Source: Micrasema longulum
Taxonomy: Eukaryota; Arthropoda; Insecta; Trichoptera; Brachycentridae
Assembly: GCA_022494885.1 (NCBI GenBank)
Contig: JAGVSM010001211.1
Location: 1 to 64,000, forward strand
Direction: 5' to 3'
DNA: 64,000 nucleotides
The position numbers and the translations under genes are program-made. Numbering within the stretch: the stretch's first letter is position 1; the number at the start of each line of letters is the position of its first letter. Shown one piece after another: positions 6,098 through 56,080 of the stretch. The notes beneath the pieces are model-generated. The model saw nothing but the letters and a program-made list of their open reading frames with translations. It made no database searches and was not told where the DNA came from.

Positions 6098-6098
6098 C

Positions 6099-31382: not shown

Positions 31383-31427
31383 CAGTCTGACGATGACGAT
31401 GTCGGTCACGACGAAACCCGGTCACTG
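31383..31427 (+). ncRNA. Hammerhead-like ribozyme, PLE family B
   Basis: Layout: stem I CAGT (31383-31386), CTGACGA (31387-31393), spacer, stem II GTCG-GTCA-CGAC (31401-31412), GAA, stem III ACCCGGT (31416-31422), cleavage base C31423, stem I ACTG (31424-31427). The spacer before stem II is 7 nt here and 1 nt in the relative at 53.4 kb, apparently from a GACGAT duplication. Probably inactive in this copy. Confidence 0.65.
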
Positions 31428-31525
31428 ATAAAAATTTATAAATAAAAGTGAAATAAAACTATATAGGTGTGTATTTTTATTATTATAGTAAAAATGCAGT
31501 TCCACCAAGAAATGTCAGTAGAAAA
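31383..31525 (+). mobile_element. PLE terminus family B
   Basis: The stretch runs from the ribozyme motif through AAATAAAAGTGAAATAAAAC to ATGCAGTTCCACCAAGAAAT. It matches the minus-strand segment at 53318-53450 along its length. Confidence 0.65.
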
Positions 31526-32110
31526 ACTCGATTTTAATTAAGTTTAAAAAAAGGATTCCATCCCACTCAACCAAAAAATGTTACCTCTTTTTTGGTGTGT
31601 GTAATTTTCTTTTTGTTCAATTTTGATTGATTAGTATCGGTATCGGCGTATCCAATATCTGGTACCTACTCAGTTCTTGTAGACTATGTGCTTCTATCAA
31701 GGTCTTTCGTGACATTTAAATTTGCACTAGATCCACTTTCAGTTTTTAGCTTCAGAGTTAATGATGCGTGCCCAAAACTTATTGTCTTGAAATTCAAGTC
31801 TTAATGAGAAAATGTTCATTACGAGTATTGCGAATTGTGCCTAAATTCATTGAGAAAAATATAAATTTATGATAAATTAAATCTATGAAATATTATGGAT
31901 ATCGTTGAAATATTCAAATACTACTCGTATATGGATATACAAATTTTAATTAAAAAATACACGGTAAAATACGTAATTGTAAGAACCCATATTTTACCTA
32001 GATTGCAACACATGTTTATCATTAATCTGTCAATTTTCGAGTGTTTTGGACGAGCAGTAATGTTTTTGACAGACAAACTGGTGTGATCGTCGAATTTTTA
32101 AAATTATTCC

Positions 32111-32151
32111 AAACTGAAAATGACGGACCGGGCGTCCGTCATTTTCAGTTT
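32111..32151. repeat. Perfect 18-bp hairpin
   Basis: AAACTGAAAATGACGGAC and its exact complement flank a 5-nt loop (CGGGC). No element context is visible. It could be a rho-independent-like fold by appearance, but that has no meaning in a eukaryote. Confidence 0.75.
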
Positions 32152-32889
32152 ATTCTCACGCCTCGCAGCTTTTTTTTTTGTTAATATCCAGAAATTGGAA
32201 TCATCACTGATGATATAGTCCGTTCAACGCCTCCGTGTGTGTTGTAGCGCTTACAAACGTGTAAATAAAATATCTTAAAGTGATCTTCAGTATTGTATAA
32301 GTCACGAAATCAAAATACCCGGGCCCCGAGTACAATTGAAAGTTAACAGAGTTATCTTCGACTTTATTTAAAGATAAACCGATATTTGTGTACGAAAATA
32401 AGTATATTTGCATGAACATTTAAAGTATCTTCGTCGGTAGGTAACCTATAATTGAACATGATTAGAAGAAAAAAATGTATACGTATTCTGCGTTTCATGC
32501 AGAAAACTTAATTTTACTTTGTAGATAACATTGAAGTTAACTTCCCATTGTAATCGGGGCCCAGGTCTTTTGAGAGGTGTGAAGTATGAGTGCCCGTAGA
32601 ACGTTGTTTCTAGTCAAATTCTTGACCCAGTCCCCCGGACTCCGCATATCCAATATATCTGTTTTATATTCACTAAATTTAGTAATCATAGTAACAGATT
32701 AATCGAGTTATTATGTTATTTTTGTACCCAATTCGTCATCCTATAATTTATTAATTTAGGAAACATGGTTAACGTAATTTTGTATAATATTACCAAAGAG
32801 TTAAGCGTGATGTCCAATTGTTTATTGATAAATATGTTTATGTAATATTTTTTTATTATGATAATAATAAAACAATAATAAAGATAATA

Positions 32890-33160
32890 ATAACCAAATA
32901 AACAATATTTCTTTTAGTCCTCTCACGTCTGACTTCGAAAATAATGATATCAAATTACCACCCGTGTAAGGAAAAAACAACTTGATTTATTGGGTCCACG
33001 TGTAGTATTTAGTGAACATGATAAAAATAAAAAAGGAATCAATTCATTAGTTACGTAAACCTTGACGAAGAAGCTTGTTTGCTTTGAAACCGGTCGGTGA
33101 AAAATATAAATTAGTGGTTAAAAACAAAGTTGTTTTATTTATTTTATTAAAATAAATTAT
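32890..33160 (+). mobile_element. PLE 3' end and terminus, family A
   Basis: Starts with ACCAAATAAACAATATTTC, which codes the NNQINNI-type end of a Penelope GIY-YIG domain in better copies. It continues through ACCACCCGTG, the hammerhead motif and GTGGTTAAAAACAAAGTTGT. It is uninterrupted here and serves as the reference for the split copy at 39.2-40.5 kb. Confidence 0.7.
33059..33098 (+). ncRNA. Hammerhead-like ribozyme, PLE family A
   Basis: Stem I ACC (33059-33061), core TTGACGA (33062-33068, first base T rather than C), one extra A, stem II GAAGC...GCTTT (33070-33074/33081-33085), GAA, palindromic ACCGGT (33089-33094), cleavage base C33095, stem I GGT (33096-33098). The triplet before cleavage is GTC, the preferred one. 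The C-to-T change in the core would be expected to hurt activity. Confidence 0.65.
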
Positions 33161-34032
33161 TGTTTAGAATGAATGCTTGTTGTGACAAAAATAATTTTAT
33201 AACGAAAAACACATTCGGAATCGATGGTGATACATGTAGGTTTTTTTATGGAGTGTAGAATACCTAATGATGGTTATTTTGTTTACTTATTATCAATGTA
33301 GAATAAGGATGAGAATACTATCCATATTCTACCCTACAAAAAGGATGGCGTTTTATCCGTATTCTATCACTATGCCTCGGCATAATTTTATACCAATTTT
33401 ATAAGTAAGACCGTATTTGGTAGCCTTTCCCGACATTCCCGTTTCCCGCCTATTCGGCGCTCCCGGCGGCTGACACGTAAAAATAATGCAAGCATAGCAC
33501 GTGACTTCCACGCTCCCTTAAATTCACAAATAAACCACTTTCTCTGACCCGGATTTCTTCGTACTTAGGGACTGGAGGTATTTGTAAAACGAGCGAATAT
33601 TTAGAATTCCGTTCTAACAATATACTTGGCATTGAAACTCTTTAACGGCTGTAGATCCACCATTGCCACTATTCAAAAAGACCTCAATTGGAAATGCATT
33701 TGTTGATATATGAAATTTGTTCGTTCATATCGTCGCCGTTCAGGCAAAAGTCACTTTCCCAAAAAACACCATTTTGAGAAATCGCAATTCGAAAGTTTGG
33801 AGAACTAGGAAAAATCAAATTTTTGCGTTTTCGAAATTTAATGTGTACAGCACATTTTTTTTAATAGTAAGGAATTCTTGTTATTTCAATAACGATAAAA
33901 AAAAACTCGTTTTGGTAACTCGTGTTAATTTTAGATTTTTTTGTTTCAGTAAAACCTTTATTAAACATGAAAAAACAACACATAAAATAATAAAAAATAT
34001 AACTATTCAGGTTGAACTTGCCAAAAAGAGTA

Positions 34033-34163
34033 ATACCCGTATGCAGAGACAAAACTTAAGGTGAGGAAAGTACATTCTAATTTAAAATGCAGAGAATAAC
34101 CCGAAGGTGAAGACAATAGAATGTACTTTCCTCACCTTAAGGTTTGTCTCTGCATACGGGTAT
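34033..34163. repeat. Long hairpin inside the 1.3-kb element
   Basis: Arms of 46 nt (34033-34078 and 34118-34163) pair with a single mismatch, around a 39-nt loop. The arms begin ATACCCGTATGCAGAGAC. Confidence 0.85.
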
Positions 34164-34284
34164 CAGGCTCTTGTGTTTGACAAGTGTACAAAATAATATA
34201 AAATAGAAACAAAAATGCATAAATAAAAATTATAAGTAAATGAACAATTAAAAATTTCAAAAATATATTAAATAAAATCTCTAT

Positions 34285-34345
34285 GTTTTATGAATCACTT
34301 TTTTTATGTTTTTTTGTGACAATAAAAAAAAGTGGTTCATAAAAC
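34285..34345. repeat. Second internal hairpin
   Basis: GTTTTATGAATCACTTTTTT and its complement, with one mismatch, flank an AT-rich loop. Confidence 0.7.
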
Positions 34346-34463
34346 AAAGTAATTTAATTTATCCCTTTAAAATATAACAATGAACTACAATGTCAGTACT
34401 ACGAACATCCAAAATAAAAAATATAACACTTTTAAAAAAAAACAAAATGAATTATACACGGGC

Positions 34464-34490
34464 ATATATATATATATATATGTGTGTGTA
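34464..34490. repeat. (TA)n(TG)n microsatellite
   Basis: About nine AT/TA units are followed by four GT units. Confidence 0.8.
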
Positions 34491-35436
34491 CATTCCTTTT
34501 TTTTTTTTTTAAATTCCATTTGTATCCTTTTATTTCATTTATATTTTTATATATCTGGAATGATTTTCGTGTGGCAAGGTAGCTAAATTTTGGTTAAGTG
34601 ATTTTTGCTTGTTTATAATCTGGACAATGCAACCCAAAAGAGCTAGTAACGGGAAGGAAATAAAGCAAAAAATGATTAAATTTTGTGGTTAAAAATATGT
34701 TTTATAGTATTTTTAAACATTTTAATGTTTTATTATACAAATACCTTAACGCAAACAAAATGTTGTTTTTGAGAAGAAAACTGTAGTACTAAAAAAATGA
34801 TAAAAATTTGCCCAAACTGTTTCTTTCTGCCGTTAGTGATTTATGCTTGTTGAGATTTTATTGAAAGTCATACCTCTGTTTTTCACTAACAACAAATAAT
34901 TTCGATTAACGCAACTTTTTTCTAAATAACCTGGGTGACTTTTGCCTCTTTAATATATTTTTACGCTTTAAATGGTATATCTTACTCAAAACTGACTTTT
35001 TAGGGTTAGTGACTTTTGCCTGAACGGCGACGATATGTGCGTGTATGAAGATATGTAGAGTAAGGACACATTAGTAATATCGCATTTGTCGTACAAAAGC
35101 TCAATAAAAACTAATACTATTTCTACGATACAATAGTTTCTTTGACTCTAAAGCATCACATTTCCCCGTCTCGTTCCTTAAGTTCGTTGTGAGATCAGAA
35201 GTCACGTGTGCCGTGCGCTGTCGTCGTATCTCTTTGCTCTTTTCTCTCCCTTTCCCTCCCCCACTCACCCCCGGCCACCTTGAAATATTCACCGCCCCGT
35301 CGCATTTGTCTTCTTTCCGCATACGTAGATTCCCCAGCGATTTCCCAACGTGAGCAATATTACAATATCCGAATTGCTGACTACAGGAAGATTTTATCGG
35401 TAAAAATTTGATTAGGGATACGATGGATTCTTTCTT

Positions 35437-35745
35437 CTTCAACGGCCCTACAGCCCATATCGAGCCGTAGCCTCCATTAACTTTCGCCTCCAACTCCTGT
35501 CATCTGCTGCAACCCGCCAGACTTACAGTAATTGGGATGCATCCTTTTTTATGTCATCTTCCCATCGCAGTCTCGGTCTACTGACCTTCTAAGACCCATC
35601 TAAGACTCCTTTTGGTACTCGCGATGATAGCATTCTTCGCACATGTCCGGCCCATCTCAGCCTTTTTAGTCTGATGTTTACAGAGACCCTGGGAGCTATA
35701 TAGATGTCGTATAGCTCATCGTTTTATCCATGATTCTTTACTGTT
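35437..35745 (-). pseudogene. RTE/R4-like LINE pol C-terminal remnant
   Basis: On the minus strand there is a frame with DASQLL, a stop, then VWRVAADDRSWRRKLMEATARYGL and a stop near 35460. The A-x-D-R-x-x-W-x-x-x-x-x-x-A ending is common at the very end of RTE-like pol proteins. Upstream sequence to 35745 is probably the same element but decayed. The ORF 35101-35493 overlaps it out of frame. Confidence 0.6.
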
Positions 35746-38700
35746 TCGTAATTGCTAGATTTATTTTTCATTGAAAGCTATTTTTCTACCCGAACTTGTA
35801 CTTTATGCGTGCAATGTGAATTTTACTTACTATTATATCAGACATGTATATCATAATGTTAATATTTTATCTAAAAGAAGTACAGTACATCGCTTATTTG
35901 AGAAAAAATGTATTTTATAAAATTATAAAACTATTCACGTTCCATAATAAATATTATAACGTTTATAACAAATTTCAGTACATACATAAATGCTCACTTT
36001 TTGCTGTTTCTCGCATACAAATTTAATCTTACTTTTGGATGCCCTAAATTGTCAATTTCGAAGACCTATTTTTTCCGAGAAAAAACTTTTCAATCTTTTT
36101 TACGATACATTTATCCCAAAGTGAACGAGGACCCCGCCTTTCGCCTAACAATATAATAAGGCCCCGGTGATGGAGAAAATAAGATGTCTTATCACCTCCG
36201 CGCCGAAAATGTATATAGAAGACCCTTTTTCATACAAATTTAGCATTTCTCGTTACTCGGCCTTACGGGTCGGGGATCGGGTCTCCCAAATTGAATTTCA
36301 CAAGAGCGACCCGCTAAACGAGATGGCGGGTCTAGAGCCCGTGATTGGTTTTAGATTGAGCTCACACCATCCAGCAACATGACACACGACCGGTGAATAG
36401 CAAACACCTTCCATCGACTCGGCTGGCGCTTGCCCGTTTTCTGGTCTCTGTTGGTGTATTCGCCTACTGCCTGTAGCCTGTTGCCTGTAATCGATAACTA
36501 CATTATACTAAAAAATCTATTCGATATGATGTGGATGCGCTGTACTAAAACGCTTTCGCCGAAATGATTAAAGTTTTGTAATCATTTCGGCGAATTGATC
36601 ATGTCCAATCAATTTAATCCCAGTCAGTGAAGAATTCACTTCCCTCTTTTCTCAATCCAATGAAGTACATATTATGTACTTCTGGATTACCTTCTTTCAG
36701 CACAAAGATGCTAAGGCTACCAGATTTCAGAGAGCTCCTTCGGGCAGCTTTTCTCGTTTGACAATGAGCAAATTTTCCGTGTATGTGGGCACCGCCAAGG
36801 AAACTTATGTCCTCAGATGCGGTGTGCGGTATGTGGTGGGCAAGCTGTACTAAAACGCATGAAAACTTATTTTTATACTTCCGATGCGATTATTTTCAGC
36901 TTTTGAATTTTCGTTACCTCTTCTTCTCTCAATGGCCTTCATTAAAGTAGATTGAACAATAATACGCTCATTAAAAGCTTTATATTGTTCCCGCGGTCGC
37001 GAGATACGATCGTAACATTTTGTTTGGTGTTGTTACGCTGAGGTTTTTTAAATTATTACAGCGCGTCGTAAAAATTTAACGCTTCCAGCGGTATTTAAAT
37101 AATATCTGTGGAGCAATTTACAATTGAATGGCTATCGGCCCTTAGCCGCCGCCATTATCCCGATAAATATGGCTAACCAACGAAATGAGAGCTATTGTTT
37201 GTGTTTTTATAGCCGCAGTGAGACAGGGGGGCTGGATTGGGAGACAGGAGACAGGAGACGGGAGACCGGGTAGTAAAGTGGTACGGAATACGGATACCGC
37301 CGCGCCGATAGTGCGGGACCCGGTACCCGGTACCCGGTACCCGATACTCCTATCGGGACTCGGGACCGCGACCTTTGTTTAGTAACCAAGAACCATCATC
37401 CAGATTGCGCCAGTGTATCACGTTTCTAGGAAGCAATGTGCGCACTATTGTACGATACGGTTCAGTGTATCGCTTCTCTAAGCGATGTCATAAATAACAT
37501 TTATTATATTTCTTCCCGAACGGAACCGAAACCTAAATGGATGCCTGTGATTTATTTTAATGAGCACTCGCAGTGGGTGAAACACTCCTTCCCCGCCACT
37601 GGCGGATGTCTTAATGTTAGGAATTTTTCTCAAATAACGACGCTTATTTATTTTTCTAATATTTCCTTTTCACGTTACGGCGGAAAGCTGTGTTTATCGC
37701 GGAGTTTCCAAATAACGTAATGACGAGCATTATTATATGATCGTATCGCGTGCATCTCAATCTCGGCCGTCATTTGATTTTCTGATCCCCGTCTACAGTA
37801 CCCAGTACCTACAGTATCGTTACCACTTACCAGTTTATCTTCCTAAAACTATTTTACGGGTCATTAACTTTACTAAGCTGTCTCGCAGATTGTGGTTTTA
37901 TTTATTACCTTCCGATTTTATTTTACTGCAGAGAAAACCCATCCGATTGTCTGATGTAGTAAAAAATACATTTCAAATTTGCTAAAATAAATTTCAATAT
38001 TTTCATCAAAGTTTTCATCGCTGAATTTTTGTTTTGTTTAAATACCTCTATGTCTTACTTGTTAGACTTTTCAATTATTCGCGAATAATATAACGTTATT
38101 TTCTTAATTTTTCATTTAGAAACTCTTTATATGCCATTGAAATTTAAATTTAAAATTAGCATGTTGCGTAATACAAATTTACAATACTAGCTATGAAATG
38201 CGTCTTAAAAGAAAACAGCTATACATGGCACCTAAATGACAAAAAATAAATACACGACGACGTTTGTTTAGAGGGAGTTTGCGAAAAGTATAGTTCGTAT
38301 ATAGCCGAAACGCGAGCTATAACGATTTTAATAGCGTTTATATTTAGGAATTTGTGTTAGATGCATTTTTAATCCATATTGGTCGGAGGGAGTCAGAGAA
38401 ATTGTTGTCCGATGTAGAAGGACGTAAACTGGTTTCTTGTTTTACTAGTAATGACTTAGGACTTAGGATATAGAGATTTTGGTATTATTTATGTTTTCTC
38501 TGGATATTTATTGTTTACTTTTAAGACTGAAAAAGCACACATAATGATAAAACTGTAATTACTTTTTAATATTATTATAAAGTACATAATTTACTGCCTT
38601 AGAACGGGGAAGCTATCCCTAGTTAGGCAGTTTAGATGAACCAACAGCAAAAATAAAAAATATATATGTTTACTTTTACTACTTAATTAATTTGTTGTAT

Positions 38701-39119
38701 AAATAATTACTTGTAAATTGCTGTAATAAATATGTAAAAAAAGAAATTAGGTACAAACGAACTTACGAAACGAAGGCACGACATGGTAAAGAGTCACAAG
38801 AACCGAAATACGTGAATTAGGTTGATATCTTTTAAAATATTAGGCTCAACATCATAATGTTACGTGGTTTTTTATATTAAGGTTTTTTGTGTTTTTCTTT
38901 TTTTTTACTATTTTTTTTTTCGGTGTACATATTTTTCTTTTTTCCATAGTACATAATTAGAGTTTTTTAAGTTTATAGAATTTAAGAGATAAAATTATGT
39001 ATATATATTAGAACTTAACTATAAGCACCTGCTGACGAACTGCATTTTATGCTGTTCAGTAGGACTTGATAATTTATATGATAATTTTCGAATGCTTTTG
39101 ATAAATAAATAAAAATAAA
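35746..39119. other. Intergenic, short repeats only
   Basis: No gene seen. It contains a perfect 15-bp hairpin at 36556-36570/36579-36593 (TCGCCGAAATGATTA), a GAGACAGG-type iteration at 37240-37268, and an iterated GGTACCC run at 37317-37343. The last two sit in a GC-richer patch (37200-37380). ORFs at 37185 and 37207 are mirror shadows of that patch. Confidence 0.5.
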
Positions 39120-39328
39120 ATTAAGCTAAAGACAAGATTTTTTGAAATGCGGGCGAGATTTAAAAACAAATATTTCATGTTGAAAATAAAATATTAAAAT
39201 TAGACAACTTTGAAATCTTAGAAATTAAAAAAGCGATTCATAATAAGAAAACAATAATTAATAACCAAATAAACAATATTTCTTTTAGTCCTCTCCTGTC
39301 TTACTTCGAAAAAAATGATATTAAATTA

Positions 39329-40202
39329 TTTATTTATTTATTTAACTTTTTGTACATAATGTTATTTGTACATTGGCGGGCTTATTGCCAAATGGCAATT
39401 TCTTCCAACCAACCAATAAAATAAAAGTTTTATTTTTATAATTCAAGTTACAGAACATATTCAATAGAAAAAAAAGATTAAAAAGTTAAAAATATATAAA
39501 AATAGAAATAAACGTATTTGTTTATAAATTACCTTAAATCAAAACTATTACTCAATGGGAAAAAGGAAAAAAGAGGAAAAAGGAAAGGAGGAGAGATTAA
39601 GGAAGAGAAAGGAGATGTTTCTTCAGACGTGATTTAAACAGAGATAATGTAGTAACATCTTTGATGGTGGATGGGAGATGATTCCAGTCGAGCCGCATGG
39701 ACACTATATGAGTTAGAGAAGAAAGAGGAATTGTGTATGGGTATTAAGAGAGTGCCTTGAGAATGAGAACGAAGAGGTAAACCATGAACTGATAAGCGTT
39801 GAAATTTTTCACACAGGTATATAGGAGCGTTAGGACTATGAAGTACATTGAACAGAAGTGAGAGGGAGTGATAGTCTCCGCTGTCTAATTTTGAGCCATT
39901 TCAGTTGCCTACGATAATCAGAAATGTGGTCATATTTCCTAAGACCAAAAATGTACCTTATGCATGTATTCTGAAGTCGTTCAAGTTTATCGAGTTGCTC
40001 ACAGCTTAAATCAGTCATGGAAACATCAGCGTAATCTAGAATGGGTAGTAGTAATGCTTGTACAAGAGTGCATTTAGTACTAATGGGTAAGAATTTTTGC
40101 AACCTTCTAAGTGAGTGTAGACTGAAAAATATTTTGCGGCTTAATTCATTAGTATGAGCTCGCCAGCAGAGATATTCATCCATTAGTACTCCTAGATTTT
40201 TC
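39329..40202 (-). pseudogene. CR1-like LINE 3' part with target duplication
   Basis: An 874-bp insertion flanked by AAATTA at 39323-39328 and 40203-40208. The minus strand opens KNLGVLMDEYLCWRAHTNEL and continues SLRRLQKFLP, LPILDYADV, LERLQNTCIRYIFGLRKYDH to 39836. After a frameshift it continues with HAARLESS and LFKSRLKKHLLSLP to about 39597. The 3' UTR ends TTTGGCAATAAGCCCGCCAA and an AAATAAAT tail. 5'-truncated. Confidence 0.85.
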
Positions 40203-40267
40203 AAATTACCACCCGTGAAAGGAAAAAACGACTTTATTTATTGGGCCTATGTGTATTTAGTGAACAT

Positions 40268-40417
40268 GAGAACATGTGACAACAAAATAAATTGTTTTAA
40301 TTAAATTTCAAATTTAAAAGCTTCAATTAAATTAATTTAACAAAAGAATCACTATGTAAAGCGCCCTTGAGGTATTTTATTACGAAAATGGCGCTATATA
40401 AGTTATCCATAATAATG
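40268..40417 (+). repeat. CR1-like LINE 3' tail fragment
   Basis: A 150-bp piece with TGTGACAACAAAATAAATTG and AAGCGCCCTTGAGG, ending ATCCATAATAAT. It is the complement of 48857-48995, the 3' end of another CR1-like LINE. It is inserted in the PLE terminus between GAACATG and ATAAAAATA. Confidence 0.75.
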
Positions 40418-40500
40418 ATAAAAATAGAATCAATTCATTAGTTACGTAAACATTGACGAAGAAGCTTGTTTGCTCTGAAACCGGTGGGATTTTTTGTAAC

Positions 40501-41329
40501 ATTAGGTATATTAAAAACATTATTCTGACGACCGGTCATCTTCACTTTCATGGCGAAGATGTTGCACCGACCATGCCAAATAATGTTTACCGCTGGTCCG
40601 GAATAAAACAGCTGGTATGTTTACGTTCTCCGCTGTCACAACACGGCGATGTGGCTGTGTGCGCGGGTCGACGACCTCTTGTTTATTGCGATATAAATTT
40701 CACGATGTAAGATATTTTTATAACAAGTGCCTACAGCGCAGCCGTCCGGCTGGTAAACAAACATACACCCCGAAAGGGCCATACTGCACCCGAGAGCCGA
40801 AAACACCGCGCGTATCACAAAATGTGTTTTTTTACGCCTCGCTTGGATTTTAACCGACGCTTTTCCCGAATATTTTTTCCGCCAGTCTCTAATCAAGCGA
40901 GTGATAGGCTATCTTTTGTAATATAATTTGAGATCAGTGAACGGCACGGTTGTTACAAAATGAACCTTTTGAACAACAATAGACACTCTGGTGCTTTATT
41001 AAAAGCCGTACGAATGCTATTATATTATCTGATAAAATATATTTCGCCGTTGTGTTATCGTCGTAAAGTGGAAATCGTTTAAAATTCAGTAGCAGAAATT
41101 ACAATTATCTCGTCCAAAAACTCAACAGGAAATCTCCATCATGATGCAAACGCAAACGTTTGAAATTAAGGGGAGCCATACAAACGATTATTTACATATA
41201 ATACGGAATACTGTGGAACCTCTATATTCGTCATTAATCTGTTCTCGGGGGTCAAACTAATATGAAGTATGACGAATGAACGAAGAAAAAAATTAACAAA
41301 TTACAACTGGAATGGAGAATACCTTAAAT
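40501..41329. other. Spacer, no gene seen
   Basis: ORFs of 78-86 codons overlap on both strands and lack family features. Confidence 0.4.
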
Positions 41330-41460
41330 AAGGGAATATGGAAGTCTAGGCATTTACAGGGCTTATGACCTGTCATTGGCTGGTTTAAGTGGCCACTTTA
41401 CACACTGCGTAACATTCACCATTTTGCCTATTTTAGTGAATCGACAATAGTATAAATATT
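41330..41460 (+). repeat. Dispersed repeat C, best internal copy
   Basis: Reads GGGAATATGGAAGTCTAGGC, ACAGGGCTTATGACCTGTCA, TTAAGTGGCCACTTTACAC and ACCATTTTGCC. The same order is found at 63862-64000. Its coding status is unknown. Confidence 0.65.
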
Positions 41461-41564
41461 CTCCATTTCTATTTTCTATAAACCTTCGACACATCGCTAA
41501 CAGATGTATTATTCCGTCGCCCGAAATTCCACAGATTTCTAACCATTTTCCAAAAACTCCCACT

Positions 41565-42559: not shown

Positions 42560-42610
42560 AATATGATATTATGTCCGTTTTTAAGCATATTGAGTTATAT
42601 ATATTGTTAT

Positions 42611-44400: not shown

Positions 44401-44489
44401 ATACTTTGTTCGATGGTTTGTTCGATGTCTCAACTATTCTTCAATAACTTGGCTACGACAGTTTAGAGACTTGAACGAATGTGTATTTG

Positions 44490-44840
44490 ACTACACATTT
44501 TTATCATTTTAAAAAGAATATGCACTTGATTATTTTGAAATATTGGAGATTAGAAAGGCTGTAAATAAAAATTTTAATATCATTCATAATCAAATAAATC
44601 TTAGTAATAGTCACATTTTCAATATGTTCCCTCTCCCTAAATCCACACACAAACCCCCTCTCTTCTCTACCCCCGTAGCCACGCCCACTCTAACTCCACT
44701 GTGAAAATTTTATAAATGTTATGTTAGTTTGTAATTAATAACCCTGAAGAAGGCATAGTATTGCCGAAACTAGTTGGTTGTCAAATTATAGGAAATATAA
44801 GTGGCACATAAAAACAAAGTGATTTTATTTTATTTTAATT
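44490..44840 (+). mobile_element. PLE 3' end and terminus, family F
   Basis: Coding for the end of a Penelope GIY-YIG domain is unusually clear: ALDYFEILEIRKAVNKNF, then IIHNQINLSNSHIFNM (about 44525-44630). An upstream HFYHFKK is one base out of frame. A non-coding terminus with the hammerhead motif and ATATAAGTGGCACATAAAAA follows, then AACAAAGTGATTTTATTTTA. 5'-truncated. Confidence 0.75.
44731..44788 (+). ncRNA. Hammerhead-like ribozyme, PLE family F (best plus-strand copy)
   Basis: Stem I AACC (44740-44743), core CTGAAGA (44744-44750), extra A44751, stem II GGCA-TAGTAT-TGCC (44752-44765), GAA, palindromic ACTAGT (44769-44774), cleavage base T44775, stem I GGTT (44776-44779). Beyond an internal loop, TAATT upstream can pair with AATTA downstream, extending stem I as in natural type I hammerheads. 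Confidence 0.75.
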
Positions 44841-45005: not shown

Positions 45006-45009
45006 TTGC

Positions 45010-46002: not shown

Positions 46003-46570
46003 TACAGCAGAGATTCAAAGCGTTTTAGAGAAGGGAATATGGAAGTCTAGGCATTTATTTATTTATTTAAACAGGCAGACAAAAAGAAAAATAAACAGAA
46101 TAAAGAACAAAAACAAATCTCAAAATATAAATGAATGCAATTTTTTTAAAAATGAATATATGAATTTTTTTGCCCTGCTCATTATGTACAAGGCTTATAT
46201 TAAGTGCAAAATGTATGTCTTTCTAATTTCTCTGACTATAGTGTGAGGATCTGTTGGTGAAAACTCATACAAGAGAAGCCGGACTATTGACAGGCATCAA
46301 CAGGCCTTCCGTTACACTTTGAGAGTGTTCGGCATTTGGTGTCCTATTTTTATTTATTTTAACAATCACCTTTACTATTTTTACCATGTATGATATTACC
46401 TTATGCGATAAATCCTCATGACTTATTACTGTTACGATATCTTCAGGTCATCATCTAGACTTCTAGCTGCATTCGCTCTAAGCTAAAAATGGGACAATGC
46501 ATCAACAAATGAGGGACATCTTGAGGTGTCTCGTCATCACATGGACAGCTATTGATTTCTGATATCTCAT
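46003..46570 (-). pseudogene. I/Jockey-type LINE fragment inserted in repeat C
   Basis: 46003-46055 is repeat C (GAGAAGGGAATATGGAAGTC). From 46056 the plus strand shows the complement of a LINE 3' tail (TTTATTTATTTAAACAGGC). The minus strand at 46560-46440 reads SCPCDDETPQDVPHLLMHCP and IFSLERMQLE, the post-RNase H block shared with 29740-30112. Truncated at both ends of the coding region. Confidence 0.7.
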
Positions 46571-47432
46571 TGGGTTGATTTTGATAATATGTTAATCAAA
46601 GTAATTTTGACAACTATTATAAAAATGTCAACATCAGAACTTTGATGGTGATGATGGTTATTATTTTCATCCTGAAATTTTCAAACATATAGATTCATTA
46701 TTAATTCAGAGCTGTACGCGAAGCTTTAAACGTACCTAGGTAATATAAGAAAATTAATCCTTTCATTTTTTGTAGTAATCCCTTGGTGGTTCATAGAAGC
46801 AAATTCCCGCTATTTAAAATACCATTAAATATAAGGCTTTCCGTCGGGGATTCTCCTTCCCTTAACAGTTTGTCCGTTTTATCTATCGGGCGCACGAGAC
46901 TTACCCGTCACCCTCCTACTCTGGTCATAGTCGTGACGTCGCAGGACTACTCCCAAGTCCCAAAGGACACCAGGAGGCAGAGATAGGGTTGCAAGCTACG
47001 TTTTTAATTTCTGGCATCTCAGCATTTTTTAAATCCAACCCCCACCCGACTTTCATTGAAGATCGCCCCTTTGAAATCATGCTACCGTCGGCGTTGCGAC
47101 GTCTTCGAGATATTTCATTTTAATATTCCGTGTACACAATAATCGTGTACTTTAATTTTTTTTATAGCCATAGATTTTTAGGGGTTTATTTATTCGCTAA
47201 GCCTTCTTGACTTATTTTAAATGACTTGTGGTCGTTGAAATCATTCAATTACCTCATATGTAATTAAATATTTTTTGACTTGAAGGATGATTTAATAATT
47301 AATGACAGGTTTAAAAAAATGTGAAAGATGCATAAATGTTTGACTGTTTAAATTTAGGGAAAAATAAATTGATAAATACGTATATAATTCGTGTAAAATC
47401 GCTTAAATCTGAGTTAGTTTACAAAAAATAAA
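46571..47432. other. Spacer, no gene seen
   Basis: The 67-codon ORF at 46783 has no family features. Confidence 0.4.
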
Positions 47433-47769
47433 TCATCCATCATCACCCTTCCCGCACCCAGTGGTTCATAGAGCACTGCATACGTGTACCAGTGTTTTGT
47501 TAATCTGTTACATGAAGAAAAAGTGAAGGAAAATAATACGCTTAAGAAGCCAATCCAGGGACAGTGAATTATTGTGTACTACGATTAAAATATATGTTTC
47601 AAATTATCTTGGCCAGGAATTTAACCTGGGCCCTCAAGAAGTAAAAGCGCGCCTACCCCTACGAGGCAGACTTATCTTTACTCGATTATCTTTTTTAGGA
47701 TTTTTACCTTGAAGTAGCCGGAAATGCTCGTCCACGTTTTTGGTTTTGTCACATCTGCCTGAACACAGA
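47433..47769 (-). repeat. SINE family S2, near full-length
   Basis: On the minus strand it contains GGTAAAAATCCTAAAAAAG, the tRNA-like GTAGGCGCGC and B-box-like GGTTAAATTCCTGGCC, then a 3' end ACCACTGGGTGCGGGAAGGG with GATGATGG. It aligns with 22627-23010 over its length. Confidence 0.75.
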
Positions 47770-47959
47770 ATAAGTCCCACGAAATAAATAACTAATTAAA
47801 AAAAAAAAAACATTCAAATTCACAAATATAGTTCTTTAAATATTAATTTTTCGCACAACTTAGTTGATTAAAAATATAAATAAATGTTGTCGAATGTAAT
47901 TTTATCTTGATTGGTAAACATTTTTTTTGGAACATTCATGATTAGGAAAAATATATCAT

Positions 47960-48160
47960 AATGACCTATTATAAATATTCAAAGCATTAACTTTGTAGTC
48001 GAACATTTGATTAAATGTATACAAAAACTTACCAACTTGAAAGTGTATAGTGGTACTGGCATGTTAGTTCAGTTAGTGTCCTGACGAAGAGACGAGTACG
48101 TCTCGAAATCGGTAGACAGGAAAGTCGGTTAGTAATTATACACAACTATTTAGTAACATT
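47960..48160 (+). mobile_element. PLE terminus family E
   Basis: Contains GTGTATAGTGG, the hammerhead motif and AAGTCGGTTAGTAATTATAC, shared with 55815-55950. A segment at 47967-48010 is the inverted copy of 55958-55995 (AATGTTTGACCACAAAGTTA). Confidence 0.65.
48077..48118 (+). ncRNA. Hammerhead-like ribozyme, PLE family E
   Basis: Stem I TGTC (48077-48080), core CTGACGA (48081-48087), extra A, perfect 6-bp stem II GAGACG-AGTA-CGTCTC (48089-48104), GAA, ATCGGT (48108-48113), cleavage base A48114, stem I GACA (48115-48118). The core is intact apart from the extra base. Confidence 0.75.
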
Positions 48161-48751
48161 TATTGTCGTAATGGCGTTCCAGTTATTATAAAAAGTAATA
48201 AAATGCCTTTCTTTGTCGCAGTCACAGCCGTTCCGCGTTTTTTGTTCGTGCGTACAATTTTCTCTACCACGTAGTAAAATATTTTAATTAGCGACGTGTT
48301 TCGCTTTTGGATAGCACAAAAAGAGCAGCGGTATAGTGTGCTGTGTGCTGTGTGCTGTGTGCTGTTCGTGTTGTTCGTTTCGCGAGCATCTCGATCCGTC
48401 ATCTCGCTGTACTTTTCCTCGTGGCGGCGCCATCTGTGTTGATTAATCGTGTACAAGTCGCCCCTCCCCAGCCGATTAATCATCATATCGCGTTCCTCAT
48501 AACGGCCGTGTGGCGATTAAGCGAACGTTTTTCTTGCGATTAAAACTTTTTCTTTCGGCCCTTTGTTGGTTACCATGAAATGCGTGAAATCAAATTGCGC
48601 TAAAATACCATGCCACGTATTACACATATGCCGTCGGAAGACAACGTAAAAACACCATTATAAACAGATTTGATGTTCTTTACGTTTTTTACCCAACCTC
48701 TTTTCGTACTATGCTTAATGTTATAATCTCGCTTCCTGATTAACCGTTTTC
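48161..48751. other. Spacer with GTGTGCT tandem run
   Basis: Four GTGTGCT units lie at about 48336-48364. The ORFs here are driven by that run and have no family features. Confidence 0.5.
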
Positions 48752-49700
48752 ATCATCATCACTCCCTTTTTCGCACCCCGTGGTTCAGTTGGCACTGCAT
48801 TTGTAAACCAAACGCAGCATATTTAGATCACCCGTTACATGTAGGTTAGTTAATTATTATTATGGATAACTTATATAGCGCCACTTTCGTAAGATAATAC
48901 CTCAAGGGCGCTTTACACAGTGATTCTATTATTAAATAAATTTAATTAAAGCTTTTGAATTTGTAATTTAATTAAAACAATTTACTTTGTTGTCACATGC
49001 TACGGATTTATTCAAACGATTTAGAGAACAAACGGGTTTTAAGTTTTTTTCCGAAACATCACTTCACTTTCACAGCCTCGCACCTCTGCTGGGAGAGCAT
49101 TCCATGCCATAGGGCCTGCGACTGCAAATGCGCGTTCACTAAATTTAGTGCGCTGTTTGCGTAGAGGTATAATAACTTTTCCTCTCGCCGTAGACGTAGC
49201 TGATCTAAGCGTGAGACGCCTGTCAGCTAGTTCATCTGGAATGCATAGTTCCCTTAGATATTCCGGAGCAGAGTTGTGCAGTGACTTATACATAAGCCAA
49301 CAGAGTTTGTATTCGACCCTCTGTGGAAAACGTAGCCAGTGTAGTTCCCGAAGTAGTGGTGTGATATGACTGAACTTAGAGATTCCGAAAATAAGTCTCG
49401 CAGCATTCAATACAGATTGTAGGCGAGTCATTTTGTTCATTGGTAGACCTGCATAATGCACAATAATCCTGCACAATAATCGACTTAGTCTTACGGTTTA
49501 AGTGTTCGTCCAAAAACAATGAAATATTGCAGTTCAAACAACCCTTAAAATCAACATTTCACATCCTGAAAGGGATTAAACCCAGAACCTCAATAATGGT
49601 AGACGAATGCGTCAACCAATATATAACGAGATGGACTTATCTCCATTCGCTTTCCTTATTCAGGATTTCTGCCTGAGAGCAGCCGTCGATTCGAAAACCC
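48752..49700 (-). repeat. SINE family S2 split by a CR1-like LINE
   Basis: The two parts, 49470-49700 and 48752-48852, align consecutively with 22640-23000. The first holds the tRNA-like B-box GGGTTTAATCCC and CTGCAATATTTCATTG. The second holds CATGTAACGGGTGATC and the GGTGCG 3' end with ATGATGATG. The LINE between them is younger. Confidence 0.78.
48853..49469 (-). pseudogene. CR1-like LINE pol C-terminus and 3' UTR
   Basis: On the minus strand (49476-49039) there is one open frame: LQSVLNAARLIFGISKFSHI, TPLLRELHWLRFPQRVEYKL, MYKSLHNSAPEYLREL, then FAVAGPMAWNALPAEVRG and MFRKKT. This is the standard CR1/L2-type C-terminal series. The 3' UTR contains AAAGCGCCCTTGAGGTATT and ends near 48855 in a TAATAATAA tail. 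5'-truncated. The tail matches 40268-40417. Confidence 0.88.
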
Positions 49701-51624
49701 TCGCCTACGATTCTCGTTCTATTGGACACAGCTAAAATCTAAATCTAGAGATACCGTTTTACTGTTAGTAATCGATTCAATGTACCCTAAATATTAACAA
49801 CTCAATAGTGGGGCATGATCATTCTTATTTATTAGTCGTTATTGGCAGTTGTGAAGTCTTCAGATAAGTTCCTAGAAAAGGATTGTGTTAAAGATAATCT
49901 TAAATTTTAACATCTAATACTTAAAGCAAGCTAACGAAATCTATCGCTTGGGGTTTTCCTCGAAGCAGAGCAAGATATTATGTTCGATGCAAAACAGAAG
50001 TTCGATCTTTGTTGTTATCATTTTCTTTCAGTTTGTATTCTGGAATAAATTTTGCGATCCCCGTAGTTACCGAGCAATTTAATCTAAAGTCACGTCTTTT
50101 GGGAACTGTACCGGTTAACTTTAGTGCGACTGAAATTCGGGCACTGTCTTTGATCCACTATCATTAATTATCGGATGTAATTAATTGAATTGGATTATTC
50201 TCCTTTAGGAAACGTTTGGCATTCAGACAGAATGGCTACGGTCTGTACAAATAGTAGCCATCATCCCTCCTAAAGCGCAGAATACTGTTTGGATTTCGAT
50301 GAGCGATTATTCAGCCCTCGATTAAATATTACATTTTATTGCGAACCGATCAATTAATTCGATAAAGTGTATTATTATGTATTAATGGAATATTCTTGTC
50401 CACCGCACCGAATGATTGCGAGGCAATTTCGTAAGATTCGTTTTTCCCTTTCTTCCTATTCCGACTTCGCCATTTTGTACAAGGTATAAATTTTCATGAG
50501 CACGAGTTTTTGTGTGCCTGATTTATCGTCTCACGTTTGGTAAAAAGCCAGTTAGTGTAGAGTCTGTGAAGTATAGTCCTCCAACTAATCTGCGAATGAT
50601 ATTTTAATTAATCGTTTGTCTGTGTACGGTTAGAAACTGTAACTATGCGCAAGTTTAGTTTTATATACTCGTGTTGTATAGTAGGATGCGTGTTGCGAAC
50701 TTGTCACTTGTCACGAGCGCTTATCTGGCGCTCGGTAAATACCGTTTTATTTGTTTTGTGCCAGATCAGGTTAGCCGTGATTGGTGATAAGTTTCTATCC
50801 TGATTATGCTAAAGACGGATACCAGCCACACACCGTTCGCCGGTAAACATAATTTTAACACACCGGATTAAACCAGATTTCCTGCATAATTTTGATTTTA
50901 TTATGTAACACGTTTGCGCTTGTCTTAAGTCTTAATGCATATTTATATTATACCGCCCGCATTATAATATTATTGGCGTGCTCAAAACGTCAACTTTATT
51001 ATATAATTGCGTAATTTTAAATACATAATTCATTATTGTACGTACAAACACCAAGATAGCCTTGAGTAAAAGCCTTATTTTCAAATGAGTGCATTGCACT
51101 TAAAATTACTCGTTTAGCGCTTCTACCGCCTTAGCATAATATAGGAATAATATGTTAAACTTCCTAATTTATTGAGTAGGTTGTAAACTCGTTTGTTTTT
51201 ACGGTTGTATTTCTTTACTTTAAGAAATGTCTCACTTTGAGATTCATAAATTGAATTTCTTTCTCATGACAAAACTCGTTTAGCTATATCATTTCCATAT
51301 ATTTTGTATAAATTTGTCGCAGAAATCACACGTTTGGAAATTGATTTATCCTTATCCGATTTTCTGAGTCAATACAAATAATGACGTAATTTAGTAAATC
51401 CCGCTATCGAATCACATTTCTCAACCGAATCTGCGTTCTCGTTCTCATTTCACGCATCCACTTCCCGAAATGTGTAAATTGCGCTGTAGAAAGTAGGCAA
51501 GGCGATGCGTAAATTATTTTGAAGGGAAAATCGGTGTCAATTTCGTCTGGCATATGGCGGAATAGCGACCGGCGCGGTGCGGCGCGGCGTCCAGCGACTA
51601 TAGTCCTTAAAATAAATATTATTT
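49701..51624. other. Intergenic sequence, no gene seen
   Basis: No family was recognised. There is a short GC-rich patch at 51566-51592. Confidence 0.4.
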
Positions 51625-51813
51625 TTTTTAAATAAAAAAGAAGTATTTACGTTCTTATGATTTACCCAAATATTTAATTTTGAGGGCCATTTTCAACGAG
51701 TTGTAAATAACTCACTATTAGAAAATGGGAATCGAGTTGGGGTAGAGTAGGATTCGAACCACGGACCTTCGGTCCGTGAGTCCGAGACACTAGCCACAGG
51801 ACCACAACCCGAT
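51625..51813 (-). repeat. tRNA-derived SINE, family S1, copy 2
   Basis: The minus strand reads GTGGCTAGTGTCTCGGACTC (A box), GGTCCGTGGTTCGAATCC (B box), a body with ACTCGATTCCCATTTTCT, then TAAATCATAAGAACGTAAAT and a T/A tail. Longer than the copy at 7509-7641. Confidence 0.82.
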
Positions 51814-51944
51814 AATATAGTATGATTAGAATGACAGTTGTCAAAAAAACTGACGACATAACTTTGTAATAACGTCTAAGGAGTGATTTATATTGACACA
51901 CGAAAAATCATTCGTATTTGGTAAGTTAATTTATTTTTTTAATA

Positions 51945-52376
51945 CAATACTTGACATATAAACCACACGTTAACTACTGTAGTAGCATTTTATTTTTATC
52001 AAACAAAGAAAACATAGATAAACTAACTGTATTACAAAATAAAGCCTTTAGAATCATTTTGAAAAAAAACAGATATACGAGGGTAAAGTCGATGGTAAAT
52101 GAAATGAAATTATTAACATATAAACAAAGAATATTTTACAATACAATGATATTTGTTCATAAAATTATAAACTCTAATAAAAAAACAGAATTTTGGAAAA
52201 AAATTGATCGGAACCAGCATGAACACGATCACAATACTAGAGAAAAGAACAAAATTAGACTTCCATTTAGGAAAAAGGCAAAGTCACAAAATTCAATTTT
52301 ATTTAAAGCAATTAAAAAGTATTACGAAATGGAAAAAATATTTATGAAGAAAAAAACATATCAAAATTTAAAATAA
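51945..52376 (+). pseudogene. LINE RT C-terminal segment, open frame
   Basis: The 141-codon open frame reads KPHVNYCSSILFLSNKENID, KLTVLQNKAFRIILKKNRYT, then HDHNTREKNKIRLPF and ILFKAIKKYYEME to a TAA at 52374. It has the Y-C-S-S, L-Q-N-K-A-x-R and N-T-R blocks common to insect LINE C-termini. 5'-truncated, so it cannot be a complete gene although it lacks stops. It ends the same way as the remnant at 10122. Confidence 0.8.
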
Positions 52377-53317
52377 TGGTCAAGACATATGTGATAAACA
52401 ATTTATAAATTAAATATATTTGCAATGTTATTATTAGAACACACATAACAATATGTATGATATGTGTGCCCTACTTTAAGATTTAAATTAAAATTAAATA
52501 GACATAAATATATAAAATCAGCGTTAAAACTAAAAAAAATAATAATTAATAAACCTAATTATTAATGGCGTTCTTACAAGGTTACATCATTTTGAAATTG
52601 ATCAATGTAAATTGATAGAATAAAAAACTAATTCGTTTGATAATGTTCAAGAAAAAAGTACAAATGTCTTAATTTTTGGTGAATAATTGTATTCAACACA
52701 CACTATAATAGGCTTGTTTTTGCGTTTTTATATCAATTTTCAGTAATTTCGTAAGGATTCTTGATTATTCTGGATTATTGATTAGTAATTTCCTATCACT
52801 ATTGACATGAGTTTGACAGCTGTCATTTTAATCAAGCTAAATTTTTAGGACTATAGCGACTCGCGACCTGCTAGTAAATTGGGTGCCACACGTATAACAG
52901 TACCATAATAGCAACTTAGCAGGCCATAACGCACTGACCCGAGAGGTGTTCCCGCCAAAAAACCGGTTGAAACATATATATTTTCATAGATTCATAATCG
53001 GCGCACGTCCGCTATGCCATCTAGATGGTATCAATTCATTTAGCCAGTATTTTGGCATTTGTCTTGAGAATTCTTTAACGTTGTATTTTCTTGGATGCCA
53101 CTTATGCATTTTTAGTTTTTCCTCTCCCGCCATATTTATTACGATGGCGTCGGTTGTGCCGAGCCTCCCCCGTTTAAATTAGATTATTATTATCATAGTA
53201 CTTTCATCTTAGAGAGCTGCATTAAGTTTAAACGCATGTAAACTGTAGGTCCAACCCTAAAAATCCAAATATAACGTAGTGGAAAAAGATTTTTATAATG
53301 GATGGAATTTTTCTACT
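52377..53317. other. Spacer, probable LINE 3' UTR then unknown
   Basis: 52377-52600 is AT-rich and may be the 3' UTR of the preceding LINE. The remainder is unrecognised. Confidence 0.4.
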
Positions 53318-53460
53318 GACATTTCTTGGTGGAACTGCATTTTAATTATAAAAATAAAAATAAAATACATATATAGTTTTATTCTACTTTTATTTATAAT
53401 TTCTACCAGTGACCGGGTTTCGTCGTGACCGACATCGTCAGACGGGTAGATTTTAGAACT
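53318..53460 (-). mobile_element. PLE terminus family B
   Basis: The minus strand runs from the ribozyme motif through AAATAAAAGTAGAATAAAAC to ATGCAGTTCCACCAAGAAAT. Same order as 31383-31525 on the other strand. Confidence 0.68.
53402..53450 (-). ncRNA. Hammerhead-like ribozyme, PLE family B (best copy)
   Basis: Read on the minus strand: stem I TCTACCCGT (53450-53442), core CTGACGA (53441-53435), extra T, stem II GTCG-GTCA-CGAC, GAA, ACCCGGT, cleavage base C (53411), stem I ACTGGTAGA (53410-53402). Stem I pairs at 8 of 9 positions. The triplet is GTC. All core positions match except for the extra base after CTGACGA. Confidence 0.78.
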
Positions 53461-53524
53461 GAATTCAATTCAAGTAAACAAAGTTTTTGATTCTATTCGT
53501 GATAGCAATATGGTCAACAGTGAA

Positions 53525-54430
53525 AGGGGGCATGACTAAAGTGACCGTACGTCTCGTTTTGAACGGGACCGTCCCGTTTTTATGGAGCCTGTCCCGTTGT
53601 CCCCAAGTACAGCTTCGGGACGTCGATATGTCCCGTTTTCAAAAAGAAAGCTACACACGGTAACATTATAAAAAAAAGTGTTGAAGAAGAACAAATAAAA
53701 ACTACAGCTGCTGAATTATATAAAATAAGCAAAGAATATTTGGAGCAGTGGACTTTGTTCTTTGAAGAATAAGAAATATTTAAATGGGCGGATTTAACCA
53801 AAATACCTACGTGGGGAGAAATTCAAGGTGTAATGGATATAATGATTCAAGGGGAATTTATTAATTGTAACTAAAGTACAGATATTTGATGAATATTCAC
53901 TTATTACTAATTATATTACAAAGAAAAAATTGACAGAATGGAACATTAGGAACGTTTCAATCGAAAGTCGTTGGGTGGAATTGTTCCAACACTTTCGCAC
54001 TAATAATTTAAATCATAAAAAACTTTCGTATAATTATTAAATACATTTTATGCCTGCCCGGAACTAATGCACCCGTAGAAAGAGTTTTTTCTCAGATGAA
54101 CAAGTTGTGGACGACTGAAAAAACGCAGTTGGAAGTCACAGTTCTTAAAGCGACGTTTTTAATTAAAATCAATTTTAAGAAATCCTGCCAAGAATTTCAT
54201 TCTTATTTAAAAGCAAACTCAGTAATACTTACCTGAGAAAATTTGTTCCTTAGAAAAATATAAAACAACATAAATTTTGGATATTTATATTATTCATTCC
54301 AGTTTTTTTCTTTTTTTCATCTACATTCCTATTTTTTTTTATTAATAAATAAAAACTATGAAAAAATACGCGTTTTCTTGAATACTCATTCTATTACGTA
54401 AAAATTGGTGGGTGTCCCGTTTTGAGAACA
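53525..54430 (+). pseudogene. hAT-family transposase remnant
   Basis: Several frames with stops give AAELYKISKEYLEQWTLFFE, WADLTKIPTWGEIQ, then after 53940 EWNIRNVSIESRWVELFQHF. Last comes an open stretch with LPGTNAPVERVFSQMNKLW to a TGA at 54236. The last block is the hAT C-terminal dimerisation domain. Repeated TGTCCCGTTTT motifs occur at both ends (about 53560-53640 and 54414-54424) and may mark subterminal repeats. Inactive. Confidence 0.82.
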
Positions 54431-54779
54431 AAAATAATGGACAGAAGCAGAGTTAAATTCGATTGAAATCTCGGTTTACGACATTGACATTTTTAAAAAG
54501 CGACTCATGTTTTGACCGATAAATTGTTATTTAGTATGAGGGAAATATATAGGATGACGCGCGGTCTTCAAAACGGTTTCGGGTATCTGGAGGGAGTGCT
54601 TTGTCTGTAGGGTCCAAAGGTTTTTGTATTTAATTCGCATCGCAAAGTAGGTATTTACGTTTTGGATTATTAGGTATAATGATTTTTAGTCATTTAGTAT
54701 TCATAACTTACTAAACTTTTTTACTTTCTTAAATAATATAAATATATAAAATTTATATTTGAAACACTAAATTTATGGT

Positions 54780-55240
54780 TATTTATTGTAATGAAATGAA
54801 TATAAAACAACTTTGTTTTTAACCACTTATTTTTTTTTCCGAATGACCAGTTTCAAACCACGCGAGCTTCTTTATAAAGGTATAATTAACTAATGAATTC
54901 TGTTCTATTTTTTTTTTTACAGTGATTATTAAATATTACATCGAGCATATTTTATTTACTTAAAAGTAGTTTATTACACATTTGGAGCAAATAAGTCAGG
55001 TCTTTTTGTTATGCTGTTCTTCTAAAGATGAAAAGTATGAAGTGAGATGGGTTCGAACTTTAAAACTAGACAGGAGTGGACTTAAGTAAATATTGTTAGT
55101 TTGTTTTTTAAATTTTATTTATATTACAATATTTTTTAAATTCTAAGATTTCTAAGTTGCCCAATTTTAATATTTTATTTTCAACATGAAGAACTTTAAA
55201 TCCAGTGTCATTATCGAAATAATTATTATTTTATATAACG
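54780..55240 (-). mobile_element. PLE 3' end and terminus, family A, inverted
   Basis: The minus strand codes DTGFKVLHVENKILKLGNLE and ILEFKKYCNINKI from about 55210. The AAGTCCACTCCTGTCT segment and a decayed hammerhead (about 54890-54850, TTTATAA core, GAAAC then TGGTC) follow, then AAGTGGTTAAAAACAAAGTT. It forms one arm of an inverted pair with 55310-55815. Confidence 0.72.
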
Positions 55241-55309
55241 GAGATTAAATGTAATTGGCATATGTACCCATACCAATTAAATTGTAATGTTTGCGATTTA
55301 ATCTGCATA

Positions 55310-55815
55310 GAAAAAACTTAAAGAAACCTTTAATATTACAGTAAAAGAACATAAGCGTTCTAACATAAGGTGCCTTAATAATATTTTTCCTGAATTCTCA
55401 AACCATCTGATGAAAATAATTATAATTTCAATAAAGGCACTGGGTTCAAAGTTCTTCATGTTGAAAAAAAAATTAGACAACTTGGAAATCTTATAAACGA
55501 AACAAGTAATTCATTATAAGAAAATAATAATAAATAACCAAATAAACAATATTACCTTAAGTCCACTCCTGTCTCGTTTTAAAGATCGTATCCATCTCAA
55601 TTTCCGATTCCCATCTTTACAAGAGCAACATGACAATGAGACTTAACTTATTAGCTCAACGTGTATCAATGTAATATTTAGTAATCACGGTGAAAAATAA
55701 AATAGGATATAATTAATTAGTTAATTATACTTTAATAAAGCAGCTTGTGTGTAGCTTTAAAACCGGTCGTTAGAAAAAATATAAATAAATGGTTAAAAAC
55801 AAAATTGAATAGTAA
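55310..55815 (+). mobile_element. PLE GIY-YIG C-terminus and terminus, family A
   Basis: This is the longest PLE coding relic. It reads FNITVKEHKRSNIRCLNNIF, PEFSNHL, one frame change, then NYNFNKGTGFKVLHVE (about 55330-55460). The EH and S-N-H-L positions match the conserved EH and S-x-F-A-x-H of Penelope GIY-YIG endonucleases. The shared non-coding end and a decayed hammerhead (55740-55775, AAAAC then CGGTC) follow. Confidence 0.75.
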
Positions 55816-56080
55816 AGCAGGTGTATAGTGGGTTTTGCATGTTGGTTAGCATGTTGGTTTAATTGGTGTCTTGAAGAAGAGACGGGTACGTCTCGAAACC
55901 GGTAGACAGAAAAGTCGGTAAGTGGTTATATACACATATTTAATAACAATTAGTAAAATGTTTGACCACAAAGTTAATGCTTTAAATATTAATAATAAAA
56001 ACAAAGTTGTTTAAAATTTATTTTACCATAATAATAACCACAAAGTTAGTGCTTCAAAAAATCTTTTTTTTAAAGCATTT
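55816..56080 (+). mobile_element. PLE terminus family E, second copy
   Basis: Shares GTGTATAGTGG, the ribozyme region and AAAGTCGGTAAGTGGTTATA with 47960-48160. A CACAAAGTTA(A/G)TGCTT segment appears twice downstream (55970 and 56039). Confidence 0.6.
55867..55908 (+). ncRNA. Hammerhead-like ribozyme, PLE family E
   Basis: Stem I TGTC (55867-55870), core TTGAAGA (55871-55877, T in place of the first C), extra A, 6-bp stem II GAGACG-GGTA-CGTCTC, GAA, palindromic ACCGGT (55898-55903), cleavage base A, stem I GACA (55905-55908). Confidence 0.68.

Follow-up and report, generated by a model that had tools for sequence, protein, structure and literature searches.

Hammerhead-like motifs in the window

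We analysed a window of 64,000 nucleotides from Micrasema longulum (Trichoptera, Brachycentridae; contig JAGVSM010001211.1, positions 1 to 64,000), in which short copies of what are probably Penelope-like elements (PLEs) carry motifs resembling the hammerhead ribozyme. The motifs share one order: stem I, (C/T)TGANGA, one base, stem II, GAAA, a short palindrome, U-H and again stem I. Named by the position of the first core base, the copies fall into four families, namely A (53441- and 31387+), B (33062+, 40453+ and decayed copies at 54.87 kb (-) and 55.73 kb (+)), C (44744+) and D (48081+ and 55871+), with coordinates as given in Table 1. An earlier note on this DNA had listed six copies and three decayed ones, and a pattern scan and direct reading located every one of them.

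The same scan and reading found the CTGANGA core intact in 44744+, 48081+ and 53441-. Core position 3 is U in 33062+ (TTGACGA) and 55871+ (TTGAAGA), and 31387+ carries an internal 6-bp TGACGA duplication, which among the family A matches listed is confined to this very copy (locus L177). To judge from their sequence, three of the six main copies (31387, 33062 and 55871) have altered cores and may be inactive. In family B, 40453+ retains the TTGACGA core and GAAA and has lost stem I, and the core is gone from the copies at 54.87 and 55.73 kb. A family B copy is also split by a probable fragment of an element without long terminal repeats (LTRs) at 39329-40200, which was recognised by eye and has no Pfam match.

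Abundance in the host genome

The host genome assembly, to which all genome counts refer, comprises 584 Mb. DNA searches, in which 40 were scored of 895 (family C), 786 (family A) and 1156 (family D) candidates, gave at least 47, 52 and 42 matches, respectively. The pattern CTGANGAN{12,17}GAAACCGGTC has 902 exact matches (439+463), as against 0+0 for its reversed control, and the pattern CTGANGAN{11,18}GAAACWWGTH has 652 (340+312), as against 13 (7+6). Most of the matches listed for the former belong to a fifth family, E (stem II GAGGT/ACCTC), which was not found within the window, while those listed for the latter comprise C, D and further stem II types; these family E and C-like patterns demanded C at core position 3 (C3). 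The family B pattern gave 841 exact matches (418+423; reversed control 0+0), and it is from such matches that this family is known outside the window. U3 is present in 832 of them and C3 in 9. In family D, a by-eye count of 29 readable copies out of 30, the window copy included, gave 19 with C and 10 with T at position 3. The type I core CUGANGA with GAAA is present in 44744, 48081, 53441 and abundant genome matches, and family B, taken by itself, departs from it because of its U3.

Two arrangements of motifs were also seen in the genome. At one locus (L145, G000:C1324:36806-37448), a 166-bp unit is present four times in a tandem array, and every unit holds a family C hammerhead of core CCGAAGA; the units look identical, and thus the array is probably recent. 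Another (L214:1-181) is a family E palindrome of two head-to-head hammerheads with cores ∼35 bases apart.

Stem covariation, folding and controls

Alignment A5 brings together 17 copies, of which 16 are distinct, from families B, C, D and E; family A has a stem III longer by one base and was for that reason not included. Pairing is seen in 90.3% of its cells, compared with at most 46.7% in slid versions, and 25 cells are double-changed, a number that none of 500 shuffles (mean 10.4) reached. In alignment A4 (10 copies), 95.1% of cells are paired and 7 of 12 pairs are double-changed, which 4 of 500 shuffles matched. Stem II was further studied in 108 distinct strings picked by eye from the matches listed, the first of the 902 and the 652, so that some distinct strings may have been missed. 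Pairs 2 to 5 of stem II lie above every one of 2000 shuffles in these strings, and the third pair is standard in 93 (CG 45, GC 37, TA 5; shuffle maximum 63, n = 2000). The best fit places one extra base between A9 and stem II in 74 of the 108, none in 7 and two in 8, the rest being tied; De la Pena and Flores (2001) reportedly announce in their title an extra base in a viroid hammerhead core. A15.1-U16.1 is kept in all 16 distinct rows of A5, copies that were partly gathered by that motif. The pairing counts of the alignments and of the strings support that stems I and II, open at stem I, covary between families.

Stem III is palindromic, and just 1-2 of its pairs are possible in a monomer. 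Predicted single-strand folds of 33062, 44744, 48081 and 53441 include stems I and II, and when two strands of 44744 or of 48081 are folded together, the palindrome of stem III joins them.

A strict descriptor (stem I of at least 3 bp, stem II of at least 4 bp, GAAA, U16.1 and H17) matched the window twice with C at position 3 and four times with C or T, and had 0 matches in each of 150 dinucleotide shuffles; it misses 53441- because of the mismatch in stem I. Of the 120 viral-contig matches listed for CTGANGA..GAAACCGGTC, which served as a null of real DNA, 10 had stem I, 6 had stem II and none had both. We also built a covariance model on families B, C and D, represented by 10 copies, leaving family A out after the first DNA alignment had misplaced it. 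The model found 55866, 48076, 44739 and 33057 at E ≤ 2.6e-13, all four being in its training set, and 40448, which is outside that set, at E 1.4e-5, with the next best match at E 0.86. The family A copies 53441 and 31387 were not recovered by it.

The elements that carry the motifs

In genome copies of family C, the C-terminus of a GIY-YIG endonuclease reads 5' of the motif, and in copy L128 PF01541 (GIY-YIG) matches upstream of the motif with E 5.2e-5 and 23.9 bits against a cut-off of 22.6. Similar GIY-YIG-like sequence was seen by eye upstream in the family D copy L196; the comparison covered families C and D. Eight window pieces gave no Pfam match, and a protein search with the 63-residue endonuclease end gave no candidate.

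The copies show a pseudo-LTR that includes the start of an open reading frame (ORF), a tail and frequent inverted arms. In families A and D an ATG lies 54 to 71 bases past the predicted cut and the copies stop a few codons later. An inverted arm is present upstream in 19 of 30 loci of family C, 16 of 30 of family D and 22 of 30 of family A, with the tails outward and the arms often abutting; two pairs among the C loci are views of one place, L136 and L150 repeating L125 and L134. In 16 of the 30 family A loci (L151-L180), with or without an inverted arm, the 5' end of the plus arm falls at r317-326, on the 5' edge of the hammerhead, where stem I begins. This fixed edge is perhaps a transcription start.

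Copy ends relative to the predicted cut

Over the 90 loci, an arm was taken as the inverted piece nearest to the main arm on its upstream side, with a minimum length of 25 bases and a maximum distance of 700 bases, which gave 17 arms in family C (without L136 and L150), 16 in D and 22 in A; L194 has no main arm by this rule, and the piece at L133 reads like family B. Arms that stop short of the cut (L138 in C; L197, L202 and L210 in D; L169, L172 and L174 in A) were left uncounted, so that 16, 13 and 19 arms reach 3' of it. The ends are BLAST ends, accurate to a few bases. Of these arms, 12 of 16 in C, 11 of 13 in D and 13 of 19 in A extend past the predicted cut, and 0, 0 and 1, respectively, end within one base of it. 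Hence the template of the arms that run past the cut was uncut there, and the insertion ends suggest that templates were mostly uncut at the hammerhead site. A loose cluster is formed by 3 of the 16 C arms and 5 of the 19 A arms, which stop on the 3' side of the cut at a distance of 5 to 12 bases, at about the end of the 3' strand of stem I; these could be trimmed ends of cleaved RNA. At L166, six shared bases permit an end exactly at the cut.

Features of the window

Apart from the features of Table 1, the window holds Gypsy-like polyprotein pieces with protease, reverse transcriptase and integrase at 843-4639 (-), recognised by eye from ORFs, and a remnant of a hAT-like transposase C-terminus at 53600-54240 (+), also by eye. 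A 365-bp direct repeat (447-811 and 6097-6461, 99.5% identity by self-alignment) is probably the two LTRs of one element. Long hairpins at 7192-7289, 26063-26156 and 34047-34149 had weak microRNA-model scores, all below the gathering scores, and are likely small inverted-repeat elements.

Table 1. Hammerhead-like motifs and associated element parts in the 64-kb window (TSD, target-site duplication)
Feature	Position	Strand	Details
Family A element	31095..31532	+	Inverted arm 31107-31176, spacer, hammerhead, tail; ORF start ATG 31494 (MQFHQEMSVEK)
Family A hammerhead	31382..31429	+	Core CTGACGA at 31387, then tandem TGACGA duplication; GAAA 31413-31416; predicted cut after 31423
Remnant of a family B element that surrounds the 33062 motif	32861..33157	+	Self-alignment
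Family B hammerhead	33058..33099	+	TTGACGA (C3 to U); stem I ACC/GGT; stem II GAAGC/GCTTT; stem III ACCGGT; predicted cut after 33095
Decayed family B hammerhead without stem I	40448..40490	+	By reading; own covariance model E 1.4e-5
Open stretch, putative end of Penelope GIY-YIG endonuclease (EILEIRKA..NQINLS)	44513..44701	+	By-eye match to longer genome copies; by itself no Pfam match
Family C hammerhead	44738..44781	+	CTGAAGA; stem I AACC/GGTT; stem II GGCA/TGCC; stem III ACTAGT; predicted cut after 44775
Family D tail, inverted, adjoining the 48081 copy	47967..48018	-	Self-alignment
Family D hammerhead	48076..48118	+	CTGACGA; stem I TGTC/GACA; stem II GAGACG/CGTCTC; stem III AUCGGU; predicted cut after 48114
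Family A element, hammerhead and tail	53302..53447	-	ORF start ATG 53340-53338
Family A hammerhead	53402..53450	-	CTGACGA; stem I TCTACCCGT/ACTGGTAGA, one mismatch; stem II GTCG/CGAC; stem III ACCCGGT; predicted cut between 53411 and 53410
Head-to-head family B pair	54758..56058	.	Arms 54808-55232 minus, 55413-55807 plus; outer ends similar
Decayed family B hammerhead region	54842..54882	-	By reading; model match E 4, chance level
Decayed family B hammerhead region	55727..55775	+	By reading
Family D insertion within family B tail	55808..55990	+	TSD-like AAAAACAAARTTG flanking both sides; ORF start ATG 55958; by reading
Family D hammerhead	55866..55908	+	TTGAAGA; stems I and II complementary; stem III ACCGGT; predicted cut after 55904

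Discussion

The motifs are very probably minimal type I hammerhead ribozymes or their recent descendants, lying in the pseudo-LTRs of several PLE families that are present here as short dead copies. The earlier note had proposed both a position in Penelope termini and covariation of the stems between families. The former is supported by the endonuclease C-terminus 5' of the family C motif, by its by-eye counterpart in family D and by the tails and inverted arms, and the latter is borne out by the structure counts of the alignments and by the stem II strings.

Several observations weigh against this interpretation. An Rfam cmscan of the window at E ≤ 10 gave 14 matches with no hammerhead among them; this was a search that the note had advised, and it had also named the lack of any covariance-model hit as one part of what would together refute its claim, a lack which we found with Rfam but not with the model built here. 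A search of the host genome with RF00163 gave no match, for its controls as well, and therefore carries no information on this point. Not every measure of pairing exceeds its shuffles: in A5 the number of pairs with a double change (5; 244 of 500 shuffles as high) and of further pair types (11; 466 of 500) show no excess, further pair types show none in A4 (500 of 500 shuffles as high), and the first pair of stem II shows none over 2000 shuffles of the 108 strings. The A5 shuffles are moreover generous, because the copies are kin and not independent, and the five-copy alignment A2, which includes family A, gives weak counts, its 77.8% of paired cells being reached in 15 of 500 shuffles. Among the folds, the four single-strand ones with stems I and II also pair part of the core, that of 55871 is without stem I, and when two strands of 48081 are folded, stem I gives way to another hairpin. 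The copies read are 5'-truncated, and the Penelope-like label, which rests on GIY-YIG and the anatomy, should be read as probable. Family B has changed C3 to U. Cleavage itself is something that we infer, and a pile-up of 5' ends at the cut, which would be expected if cleaved RNA were the template, was looked for among the arms and no exact one was found.

That the motifs are a chance resemblance within repeats, with the pairing read in afterwards, agrees with the silence of Rfam and is rejected: descriptor shuffles, reversed patterns, the viral-contig null and slid structures all fail to reproduce the motifs, which leaves this explanation with next to no probability. The observation is confirmed as real and beyond chance. 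It is quite improbable that the copies are non-autonomous retrozymes, i.e. short ribozyme elements spreading as circular RNA with the help of PLEs. The common start of the family A plus arms, giving a unit of ∼146 nt, and the one tandem array of motif-bearing units would fit such elements, but the array units carry a changed core, the family A edge differs from the cut, and stem III is minimal here, whereas PMC7761336 describes retrozymes with classical type I motifs. We have not adopted retrozyme status because families C and D extend upstream into endonuclease coding sequence.

An alternative that bears on function is that hammerhead-derived folds are retained because of some function besides cleavage, such as the dimerisation of RNA, the binding of protein or the start of reverse transcription, with catalysis optional or lost. 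The near-fixed U3 in at least 841 family B matches, the mixture of C and T in family D and the arms that run beyond the cut all speak for it. So does PAc (Poseidon of Anolis carolinensis), whose insertion in vitro is normal when the hammerhead is mutated and at whose cut no ends were found by RNA-seq (PMC11167929). On the other side, intact CTGANGA is abundant in family E and C-like matches, though by patterns that required C3, the end at L166 may lie exactly at the cut, and the loose cluster of arm ends near the cut lowers the odds of uncoupling. Nor need U3 mean a dead ribozyme, because PMC7151607 cites from halophiles a natural U3 core in which two more bases stand before UUGACGA. Taken over all families we regard this alternative as rather unlikely. 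Its more specific form, that family B multiplied with C3 changed to U while the stems of the pattern and GAAA were kept, so that the fold is uncoupled from cleavage and retained for dimerisation, packaging or the start of reverse transcription, is possible but doubtful.

If the motifs are cleaving hammerheads, we infer dimerisation and an order of insertion steps as follows. In an RNA spanning two pseudo-LTRs, or between two RNAs, the self-complementary stem III (ACCGGU, ACUAGU) would pair two motifs, and the paired motifs would cleave just 5' of the 3' strand of stem I. Target-primed reverse transcription would start just inside the ORF start, which gives the tail, and would run back through the hammerhead; priming on both strands would then yield two head-to-head arms. 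The PAc protein starts reverse transcription internally and extends both target strands in vitro (PMC11167929), which would explain two arms. Self-priming has been proposed instead for inverted arms (PMC3846280).

Similar combinations are described in other animals. PAc resembles the present elements in having a hammerhead at the junction of pseudo-LTR and ORF, a GIY-YIG enzyme and a tail from its internal start, and differs in that its cut lies 26 bp inside the ORF, compared with cuts 5' of the ATG in families A and D (PMC11167929). The Penelope elements of Adineta vaga have head-to-head inverted pseudo-LTRs that include the first codons, tails and TSDs, as described in PMC3846280; their families are of low copy number, compared with the many hundreds here, and the word 'ribozyme' has no occurrence in the main text of that paper. 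The W-elements of Schistosoma mansoni have minimal hammerheads with a very short stem III, as here, but are satellite-like and not PLE copies; three intact candidates cleaved in vitro, and one core mutant and one cut-site deletion did not (PMC8490949).

The association of hammerheads with Penelope elements is therefore known, and motifs of this kind have already been described. As far as papers citing the 2014 and 2017 work on minimal type I hammerheads in PLEs show, the present motifs are like those in pseudo-LTR position, minimal stem III and motif order, and what appears to be added is the families themselves, the one extra base before stem II, the palindromic stem III, the U3 that is nearly fixed in family B and the way in which copy ends are distributed.

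That earlier work is reportedly by Cervera and de la Pena (2014) and by Lunse, Weinberg and Breaker (2017), the latter said to name dimer cleavage in its title. What stands out here is the number of copies and of motif families in one genome, including an abundant family with a near-fixed core change. According to PMC7761336, it is unknown what the hammerhead does in Penelope elements. Because several motif families occur side by side, one of them with a near-fixed core change, the need of cleavage for mobility becomes testable on natural sequences, and if the fold is indeed uncoupled from cleavage, family B would be a natural experiment.

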